From Fimbriimonadales bacterium (GTDB taxonomy: Bacteria > Armatimonadota > Fimbriimonadia > Fimbriimonadales > GBS-DC): a DNA stretch of 64,000 nt. Below are positions 48,013-63,775 of this stretch, one piece after another. Both the position numbers and the translations under genes were made by a program. The stretch is from NCBI GenBank assembly GCA_025061985.1, contig JANXAW010000008.1:1-64000 (forward strand), given 5' to 3'. Each line of letters starts with the position of its first letter. Position 1 is the first letter of the stretch. Under the pieces are notes generated by a model, which was not told the DNA's origin, ran no database searches, and saw nothing but the letters and a program-made list of their open reading frames with translations.

Positions 48013-48020
48013 ATTATACC
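48013..48020 (-). promoter_or_regulatory. GGTATAAT box before the DUF374 gene
   Basis: The reverse strand reads CGGTATAATCCC eleven bases before the GTG start. It faces the divergent SDR promoter box at 48044-48051. Confidence 0.5.
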
Positions 48021-61365: not shown

Positions 61366-61971
61366 ATGCCTAAGTCGTACGTTCCCAAGGTTGCCCGTCG
61401 CTGGGTGACGGTGGGAATAGTCAGCCGCCCGTTTGGGATGCGCGGCGAGCTTCGGGTACGGGTGGAAACCGACTTCCCCGAGCGGTTCAAGCCGGGTGCG
61501 CGACTGTTTTGGTGGATACCGCCCAAGCCCGAACAGGAGCACAGTGAGGGTGAGGAGTCTTTATCGGATTCTGTTCCTGTTCATCCGCCCAAGAAGAAGC
61601 TCCCTCGAACCATGCAGCCTCAGCCTTGCACAATCAAGAGCGTGCGCTGGCAACGCGATCAGCTTATTTTGCAGCTGGAAGGTATAGAAACGCGCGCCCA
61701 AGCTGAGCAGTTGCGCGGAGCTTGGCTGCTTATTCCGCCTGAAGAGCGCATGCCCCTTGGGGAAGATGAGTATTATGTGGACGACCTGGTGGGGATGGAA
61801 GTGTTTACCGAAACGGGCGAGCGGGTGGGCAAGCTCAAGCAGGTTCGCAGGGGCATTGTCTACGACTACTTTGAGGTGGGCAAGCATTTGATTCCTGCTG
61901 TTGCTGAATATGTGCTCAAGGTTGACTTGGCTAACAAGCGTATTATCGTGCGTTTGCCTGAGATAGAGTAA
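61366..61971 (+). CDS. rimM: Ribosome maturation factor RimM
   Basis: The 201-aa 16S processing factor has the N-terminal domain (VGIVSRPFGMRGELRVRVETDFPERF), the linker and a C-terminal PRC-barrel-like domain (YYVDDLVGMEVFTETGERVG, VVGKHLIPAV-like end). About 30 extra charged residues (Glu/Ser then Lys/Pro-rich) lie inside the first domain around residues 45-75. trmD, its frequent neighbour, is elsewhere in the window. Confidence 0.94.
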   Translation: MPKSYVPKVARRWVTVGIVSRPFGMRGELRVRVETDFPERFKPGARLFWWIPPKPEQEHSEGEESLSDSVPVHPPKKKLPRTMQPQPCTIKSVRWQRDQLILQLEGIETRAQAEQLRGAWLLIPPEERMPLGEDEYYVDDLVGMEVFTETGERVGKLKQVRRGIVYDYFEVGKHLIPAVAEYVLKVDLANKRIIVRLPEIE

Positions 61972-61987: not shown

Positions 61988-61995
61988 GGTATAAT
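61988..61995 (+). promoter_or_regulatory. GGTATAAT box 10 nt before plsY
   Basis: TTGGTATAATTTGCCCCACG then ATG. There is no Shine-Dalgarno, indicating a leaderless or very short-leader transcript. Confidence 0.55.
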
Positions 61996-62005
61996 TTGCC
62001 CCACG

Positions 62006-63121
62006 ATGGCATTCGAGGCGCTGCTGCTTGCGTTAGTTGCTGCGTTTTGGGTTGGGGCGTTGCCGTTCGGCTTCTGGGTTGCTCGGCTGCACGGGGTAGA
62101 CATCCGCAAGGTTGGTAGTGGGAACATTGGGGCGACGAATGTCTTCCGCGTGCTAGGGGCGAAGTGGGGGCTAACGGTGTTGGTGCTGGATGCGCTCAAG
62201 GGTTGGCTGCCCACGTGGGTCGTTGTGCGTTCTGGTGCGGATGATGTGTCGGCAATCTTGGTGGGGGTTGCTGCGATTTTGGGGCACACCTTTTCGCCCT
62301 TGATGGGGTTCAGGGGTGGTAAGGGGATTGCGACAGGATTGGGTGCGCTGTTAGCAGCTTCGCCGCTTACGATTGCGATTGCTTTCCCCGTATGGCTGGT
62401 AGCGTTTCTTGCCACGCGCTGGGTTTCGCTAGGCTCAATACTAGCTGCGGCGACGGTGCCGATAGCTGCCTATTTTGTGGGGCACTCCTTGCCAGCGGTG
62501 GGTATTTTGGCTGCTGCGGCGGTGGTTGTTATTTGGAAGCATCGTGCGAACATTCGGCGCATCTTGCGAGGCACGGAGCCGAAACTGCAGTGGCGCAACT
62601 CGCGCGCGAACTTGGAGCAAGCTTGCCTTCAGTTGGCGCGAACTGCTGTGGAGCGGATGGTATTGGAAGGCACGCGGATTGAACCAGACCTTTCGCAGCT
62701 GCCGGATTTGCTGCGTGAGCCAGGGAGTGTGTTTGTGGCGCTGTATCAGGGAGAGCAGTTGCGGGGGCTAATGGGAAGTTTGGTGCCACAGCAGCCCACG
62801 CGCGCCCACGAAATCGTCTATCATGCTACGCGCGCTGCGCTGTTAGACCCCTATCATCCGCCAGTGGACGCTGCGGAGCTGCCCACGCTCAAGTATGTGG
62901 TTTACTTGGTGGAGTCGTACGAGCCGTTGCGCGATTTGGAGCAGGTAGATCCTGCGCACGATGGCTTGTGGGTGGAGTGGCAGGGCAAGCATGCGGTGCT
63001 GGCGCCTCCTGCGCCGAATCGCAGCCCGCAGGATCAGATGTACTATGCCATGACGCGGTGTGGGGTGCCTCGTGGCGAGCGACCTGTGGTGTATCGGGTG
63101 CGCCTCAATCGCATAGGCTAA
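62006..63121 (+). CDS. plsY: Glycerol-3-phosphate acyltransferase PlsY fused to an AMMECR1 domain
   Basis: Residues 1-195 are PlsY, which makes lysophosphatidic acid from acyl-phosphate: several helices, SGNIGATN (38-45), GHTFSPLMGFRGGKGIATGLG (93-113) and KHRANIRRIL (178-187). Residues 200-370 form an AMMECR1-like domain: QLRGLMGSL (251-259), RAALLDPYHPPVDAAELP, LRDLEQVDPAHDGLWVEW and HAVLAP. Ordinary PlsY ends near residue 200. No in-frame stop, start or ribosome binding site separates the parts, so one polypeptide is predicted, with the AMMECR1 part in the cytoplasm. trpF begins 3 bp after. Confidence 0.9.
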   Translation: MAFEALLLALVAAFWVGALPFGFWVARLHGVDIRKVGSGNIGATNVFRVLGAKWGLTVLVLDALKGWLPTWVVVRSGADDVSAILVGVAAILGHTFSPLMGFRGGKGIATGLGALLAASPLTIAIAFPVWLVAFLATRWVSLGSILAAATVPIAAYFVGHSLPAVGILAAAAVVVIWKHRANIRRILRGTEPKLQWRNSRANLEQACLQLARTAVERMVLEGTRIEPDLSQLPDLLREPGSVFVALYQGEQLRGLMGSLVPQQPTRAHEIVYHATRAALLDPYHPPVDAAELPTLKYVVYLVESYEPLRDLEQVDPAHDGLWVEWQGKHAVLAPPAPNRSPQDQMYYAMTRCGVPRGERPVVYRVRLNRIG

Positions 63122-63124
63122 CCG

Positions 63125-63775
63125 ATGTGGGTTAAGATTTGCGGTCTTACGAGCGTTGCTGATGCCCATGCTGCTGCGGGGGCAGATGCACTTGGGTTTG
63201 TTTTTGCACGGAGCAGTCCCCGCTACCTACCTTGCCATAGCCCCGACTGGCACGAGTGGGTTGGCACGCTGAGCCAGGCAACGCGCGTGCTGGTGCTTAC
63301 AGCGCCAGAGGAGCTGCCTGCTCAGTGGCGATGCTTTGATGTGTTGCAGTGGGTTGTGCCGATGGACGCCACGCCCACCTCTGAGCTGCTTCAGTGGCTC
63401 CCTGAGCTTCCTTTGTGGGTGGCGTTTCGTTTGCCGCCGACGCTCGAGGTTGCGGAGGCGCTACGGCTGATGGCGCAGTGGGCGCCGTATGCGGAGCGGT
63501 TCGTGCTGGATACTTATCACCCTGTCTTGCAGGGAGGTACGGGCTTGACGCATGATTGGCAGCGGGCTGCTGCGATTTGCGCTGCTGCGCCTAAGCCGAC
63601 GATTCTTGCGGGTGGGCTGACGCCTGAAAATGTGGTAAGCGCCATTGAGACGGTGCGCCCGGCGGGGGTAGATGTGAGTTCAGGCGTAGAGTTTGCGCCG
63701 GGGCGCAAGGATCCTGAGAAGGTGCGCGCGTTTATTCGGGCTGCGAAGACTGCGCTGGAGGGTGCCCGTGGCTAA
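63125..63775 (+). CDS. trpF: Phosphoribosylanthranilate isomerase
   Basis: The 216-aa TIM barrel isomerises phosphoribosylanthranilate in tryptophan synthesis. The catalytic Cys lies in VKICGLTSVADAHAAAGADALGFVF, the Asp region in FVLDTYHPVLQGGTG, and the phosphate site in LAGGLTPENV and GVDVSSGVE. No other trp gene is adjacent. Its stop overlaps the next gene's GTG. Confidence 0.95.
   Translation: MWVKICGLTSVADAHAAAGADALGFVFARSSPRYLPCHSPDWHEWVGTLSQATRVLVLTAPEELPAQWRCFDVLQWVVPMDATPTSELLQWLPELPLWVAFRLPPTLEVAEALRLMAQWAPYAERFVLDTYHPVLQGGTGLTHDWQRAAAICAAAPKPTILAGGLTPENVVSAIETVRPAGVDVSSGVEFAPGRKDPEKVRAFIRAAKTALEGARG

Follow-up and report, generated by a model that had tools for sequence, protein, structure and literature searches.

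PlsY is an essential enzyme that catalyses the first step of membrane-lipid synthesis, and the C-terminus in this family is generally taken to be cytosolic. AMMECR1, a family that spans archaea to humans, has to our knowledge no known function, and we know of no assay of its canonical activity. A 2019 survey of dioxygenases, cited in PMC7159879, reportedly describes Memo-AMMECR1 systems. For the Aquifex PlsY, individual residues have been assigned to a clamp for the phosphate of glycerol-3-phosphate (G3P) and to the acyl-phosphate site (PMC5700162). In that same work PlsY carried C-terminal eGFP tags, which fits a C-terminus that lies in the cytosol and can accommodate a globular domain. For AMMECR1 an LRGCIG motif has been described, and a point mutation within it causes human disease (PMC5502304). 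Here we analyse a bacterial gene in which these two families are joined in a single reading frame.

A single frame encodes a PlsY domain and an AMMECR1 domain

The 64,000-nucleotide stretch of DNA analysed here, referred to as the window, is part of a genome assembled from a metagenome (1.35 Mb, 66% complete; G000) from the order Fimbriimonadales of the phylum Armatimonadota. The fused gene plsY::AMMECR1 occupies positions 62006..63121 on the forward strand, as an uninterrupted reading frame of 371 residues plus the stop; it starts with the ATG at 62006, its stop codon ends at 63121, and the frame is nowhere broken. The PlsY half comprises residues 1-195 (62006..62590). In Pfam, the G3P_acyltransf profile PF02660 matches residues 13-186 at 172.7 bits against a cut-off of 24.1, and in NCBIfam the PlsY profile TIGR00023 is passed with a score of 179.2 against an equivalog cut-off of 137.2. 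A linker follows at residues 196-205 (62591..62620), at the position where unfused relatives have a stop codon and an overlapping start. The AMMECR1 domain itself extends over residues 206-371 (62621..63118), with PF01871 matching residues 208-355 at 77.4 bits against a cut-off of 25. This half reaches only 72.3 bits with the NCBIfam profile AmmeMemoSam_A (TIGR04335), below the cut-off of 99, and is therefore a divergent member of the family.

The solved relatives identified by sequence were the Aquifex PlsY (5xj5) and the archaeal AMMECR1 proteins 1zq7 and 1vaj. An AlphaFold model, for which 35 sequences were supplied, had a mean pLDDT of 91 and consisted of two well-formed domains with a single weak spot at residues 198-200, where the confidence in the linker is low; the pTM of the full chain was 0.56, so the model does not fix how the two domains are positioned relative to each other. 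Using Foldseek, the PlsY half matched structures 5xj5-5xj8, with a TM-score by target of 0.94 and 40% identity for 5xj7, and the AMMECR1 half matched 1vaj (E 6.7e-10), 1zq7 and 1wsc. A preliminary description of this locus had proposed that one frame joins a complete PlsY to a complete AMMECR1-like domain. The frame, the PlsY domain and the AMMECR1 fold are borne out, both by the profile searches, in which PF02660 and PF01871 lie far over their cut-offs and AMMECR1 is found where it had been claimed, and by the full-chain prediction, in which both folds are seen. The AMMECR1 domain is not complete in the sense of retaining the invariant residues of its family, which are missing. We considered whether the AMMECR1 half might be translated on its own, from a start within the gene, and rejected this, as the window gene has no start codon near the junction; the first methionine past the junction falls, by sequence and AlphaFold model, within a helix of the AMMECR1 domain.

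A TATAAT hexamer, located inside GGTATAATT, lies at 61990..61995 on the forward strand, 10 nt before the ATG of the fused gene. All of the same-genus genes looked at have it at the same position, and the sequence further upstream differs. Its retention despite unrelated upstream sequence suggests that the fused gene likely has its own promoter and gives rise to a near-leaderless transcript. Boxes of the GGTATAAT type are found in the window at 61988-61996, 26818 and 54444, and on the reverse strand at 48018 and 37104. Each ends 3-11 nt short of a start codon, and five of the ten TATAAT hexamers of the window are so placed, which suggests that near-leaderless transcripts could be widespread in this lineage. 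Downstream, the gene for phosphoribosylanthranilate isomerase (trpF, identified with Pfam; 63125..63775, forward strand) begins 3 nt after the fused gene. The same succession was seen in all 11 loci checked from f1, one Fimbriimonadales family (Armatimonadota) of thermal-spring bacteria. The gene order in the window is rpsP-khpA-rimM-plsY::AMMECR1-trpF, with trmD not directly after rimM. RimM (61366-61971) has an N-terminal Pfam match in which 111 residues are aligned to a profile of 84 positions; the surplus is an insertion of ~27 charged or proline-rich residues.

The fusion is conserved within one family and retains the PlsY substrate-binding residues

The full-length fusion is present in 15 of 18 f1 genomes, representing five genera, at 49-100% identity and with no internal stops. 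The presence in five genera led us to reject a fusion limited to one species. Two genomes from the genus of the window, G006 and G012, have no PlsY match at all, and are therefore probably assembly gaps rather than counter-examples. In a sixth f1 genus, represented by G015, the frame encodes 391 residues; the tail begins as in the other proteins and is then eroded, and Pfam finds PlsY only. This near-erased tail means that the AMMECR1 domain is not indispensable. Other long PlsY reading frames had been flagged by length, and those that were recovered looked, by inspection only, like GC-rich stop-to-stop frames and not like fusions.

Eight residues of the PlsY half, S38, T44, R48, H94, K106, S144, H179 and N182, are invariant in 15 of 15 fused genes. 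They correspond to Ser35, Thr41, Arg45, His92, Lys104, Ser142, His177 and Asn180 of the Aquifex enzyme. The fused gene is the sole PlsY match in every f1 genome with a match, and PlsX was found in six of the eight f1 genomes searched. Given a sole PlsY copy and the presence of PlsX, the fused copy very likely serves phospholipid synthesis. Judged from its sequence, the fused gene is predicted to encode an active PlsY, the acyl-phosphate:glycerol-3-phosphate acyltransferase.

The AMMECR1 half has lost invariant residues and is under purifying selection

We compared the 15 fused AMMECR1 domains with 83 unfused domains, 28 of them from gene-pair or f24 genomes and 55 from elsewhere. In the alignment, the family motif LRGCIG is replaced in the window gene by LRGLMG (62759..62776, forward strand). 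The codon for residue 255 (62768-62770) specifies Leu where all 83 unfused domains have Cys, and that for residue 351 (63056..63058), also on the forward strand, specifies Arg where all 83 have Lys. These replacements are general to the fused proteins: the Cys of LRGCIG is Leu or Met, and the invariant Lys (351) is Arg or Gln, in all 15. An invariant Phe at position 284, present in 83/83 unfused domains, is likewise lost from 15/15 fused domains, and Arg 283, invariant in the 83, is lost from 12 of the 15. The nearest unfused protein, from genome G020, retains the Cys, Lys, Phe and Arg. The fused domains keep the structural-looking residues V244, G257, D281 and P334, and their length and a C-terminal YRVRLNRxG-like ending are kept across genera. 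The dN/dS of the AMMECR1 half is ~0.03-0.11, as low as that of the PlsY half, with the closer, unsaturated pairs being informative and synonymous sites saturated in several others. Purifying selection on the AMMECR1 half is as strong as that on PlsY.

The partners of AMMECR1 were also searched for. MEMO (PF01875) had no match in any of the f1 genomes searched, as against matches in 27 of the 28 genomes that have the gene pair or belong to f24. The radical SAM family TIGR04337 was found in none of 12 f1 genomes and not in G020; among gene-pair and f24 genomes, it passed its cut-off in 14 of 17. LigB-type partners were absent from the f1 genomes searched. The loss of the residues and the loss of MEMO represent a single evolutionary event in one lineage. 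Family f3, of the same order, speaks against a strict coupling of the two, as its AMMECR1 proteins keep the Cys and Lys although f3 genomes are without MEMO.

The context of AMMECR1 in f3 is unrelated to the plsY pair. Nine f3 genomes have a stand-alone AMMECR1, and in 9/9 of them the next gene downstream is large and alpha-2-macroglobulin-like (loci L114-L117, L119, L125, L130, L134 and L135; for example, L205:5790-10570). Most of these proteins have a hydrophobic, signal-like N-terminal stretch, as judged by eye, and they retain the Cys, in a GCRG motif, and the Lys. The f3 AMMECR1 is possibly exported and paired with a protease trap, which seems unusual.

The fusion arose from a plsY-AMMECR1 gene pair

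Gene pairs were called from the positions of PF01871 relative to PF02660 across the phylum, and were then checked on the DNA. A separate AMMECR1 gene lies directly 3' of plsY, on the same strand, in 26 genomes from nine other Armatimonadota families (f4, f16, f19, f26 and f31-f35). In many of these genomes the plsY stop and the AMMECR1 start overlap as ATGA or TGATG, the arrangement expected for translational coupling. The der gene lies upstream in most gene-pair genomes, and maf lies downstream in some. One genome, G222 (L180:1278-5566), has the run der-plsY-AMMECR1-radical SAM-maf, in which the radical SAM protein scores 328 bits with TIGR04337; this is the sole case seen of a radical-SAM member inside the plsY cluster.

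The nearest unfused pair within Fimbriimonadales, the order of the window, is that of G020 (f4). The fused AMMECR1 domains form one clade (100/100 in the tree), and the unfused AMMECR1 of G020 is the sister of this clade (98/94 and 99/92 in two trees). The fusion arose from adjacent plsY and downstream AMMECR1 genes, and, with the fused clade sister to the neighbour gene of G020, the simplest history is therefore a single fusion of the gene pair.

Pairing is not uniform within the phylum or beyond it. In f5, another family of the order, PlsY is present and AMMECR1 is not. In f24 (L195, L196) the genes run der-AMMECR1-maf and plsY is located at another place in the genome, a counter-case to a strict link between plsY and AMMECR1. 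The pair was not seen in 65 PlsY loci or 45 whole genomes of other phyla, a sample without further AMMECR1-bearing groups such as Chloroflexota, Thermotogota and archaea, nor was it seen among the matches listed for 110 Bacillota-type genomes. An AMMECR1 subfamily specific to plsY was considered and rejected, as the LigB-AMMECR1 fusions of Clostridia group with these genes in a clade of poor resolution; the tree therefore does not show that the gene pair arose only once. The deep branching order of the Clostridial LigB fusions and the Armatimonadota pairs is not resolved by the tree. No plsY neighbour of a Clostridial LigB-AMMECR1 gene was present among the matches listed.

Discussion

The reading that we favour, and whose chances we put at about even, is that PlsY is active and that the AMMECR1 domain attached to it has been retired from its former role and persists as a regulatory or scaffolding module in the cytosol. 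The domain would no longer perform the ancestral AMMECR1 activity, and the AMMECR1-fold tail would most likely be located on the cytosolic side, serving PlsY as a regulator, scaffold or stabiliser. It might there bind a ligand, or a partner such as PlsX, which makes the acyl phosphate, close to where the active site of PlsY opens to the cytosol. Since the invariant residues, MEMO and the radical SAM protein are gone, the fusion is not simply the general activity of AMMECR1 applied to lipids, and it may show what remains after that activity is lost. The erosion in G015, the absence of AMMECR1 from f5 and the gene order in f24 count against the regulatory-module reading. A broader proposal, which we regard as tentative and more doubtful, is that AMMECR1 is a dedicated PlsY partner in Armatimonadota, co-translated in many families and fused in one. 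The fused domain would then keep only a PlsY-regulating role, and AMMECR1 would have two functions that can be separated, of which one would lie in phospholipid synthesis.

The tail might instead be a structural leftover of a chance fusion, with AMMECR1 function lost and the domain kept only for the folding or stability of PlsY, regulating nothing. Loss of the invariant residues in the fused domains speaks for such a leftover; other families of the order do without AMMECR1, and with the nearly erased tail of G015 the leftover is the main rival and a serious one. However, selection on the domain equals that on PlsY across the unsaturated pairs, and both its length and its C-terminal ending are kept across genera. 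The selection data favour a needed part and cannot separate stability from regulation. We consider a leftover that regulates nothing rather unlikely.

A different objection concerns the gene pair, in which AMMECR1 might really be associated with a der-maf housekeeping cluster that plsY merely happened to adjoin. Such an association would account for der upstream in most gene-pair genomes, for maf downstream in several and for the f24 order, der-AMMECR1-maf without plsY. That order implies that an ancestral der-plsY-AMMECR1-maf cluster may reflect a general housekeeping order. Against this, the pair occurs with no der detected nearby in f19 and f1 (contigs of G020 and f16 are too short to tell), and plsY was the gene that became fused. 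We judge an association with der and maf alone to be unlikely.

PlsY could also act as a membrane anchor for an AMMECR1 domain that has its own cytosolic function at the membrane, leaving PlsY activity unaffected. That PlsY has been tagged with eGFP at its C-terminus (PMC5700162) is compatible with an anchoring role, as is the existence of other AMMECR1 partners elsewhere, namely in the LigB fusions of Clostridia. With the invariant residues gone and the known partner genes absent, we find an independently acting domain improbable. Still less credible is a true two-enzyme protein in which the ancestral AMMECR1 reaction persists, with other residues replacing the Cys and Lys. The fold and the selection on it are kept, but both residues are present in 83/83 unfused and 0/15 fused domains, and MEMO and radical SAM have been lost. 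Finally, a frame error or chimeric assembly, where related genomes would have two genes, has a negligible probability and is excluded by 15 separately assembled f1 genomes, including G010 (one contig, 3.0 Mb), which repeat the fusion with no stop inside.

The preliminary description had suggested that linkage to PlsY gives AMMECR1 a lipid-related context. Conservation of the fusion, together with the gene pair in nine other families, supports this suggestion. It had also named such a link as one not known to have been described, and our search agrees: no open-access text names both AMMECR1 and PlsY, subscription literature lying outside the search. Neither the fusion nor its precursor gene pair, nor the disappearance of invariant residues from the fused AMMECR1 domain, thus appears to have been described in the searchable literature, while PlsY and AMMECR1 are themselves known families. 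Because the reaction of PlsY is known and can be assayed, being fused to it gives AMMECR1 a concrete, testable context, to which the gene pair with overlapping stop and start, present in many families of the phylum, adds. The fused lineage can be viewed as a natural mutant without the Cys, the Lys and the partners, and suggests that those residues were central to what AMMECR1 did ancestrally.

Four known systems are closest to the fused protein. It shares with PlsY (YgiH; PF02660/TIGR00023; 5XJ5-5XJ9) the whole membrane domain and the eight substrate-binding residues, and differs in having ~170 extra C-terminal residues that fold as AMMECR1. With the AMMECR1 family (PF01871; 1VAJ, 1ZQ7, 1WSC) it shares the fold, the Pfam score and a tree position inside the family; unlike those proteins, it is fused to a membrane enzyme and is without the LRGCIG Cys, the invariant Lys and the invariant Phe. 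Compared with the AmmeMemoRadiSam system (TIGR04335/TIGR04336/TIGR04337), the fused domain descends from a subfamily whose gene-pair relatives have MEMO and radical SAM in the genome, whereas the fused lineage has neither MEMO nor the radical-SAM member and its TIGR04335 score is below the cut-off. The LigB-AMMECR1 fusions of Clostridia belong to the same AMMECR1 subfamily, being ~50-65% identical to the Armatimonadota gene-pair type, but there the partner is a domain of the ring-opening-dioxygenase type and not PlsY.
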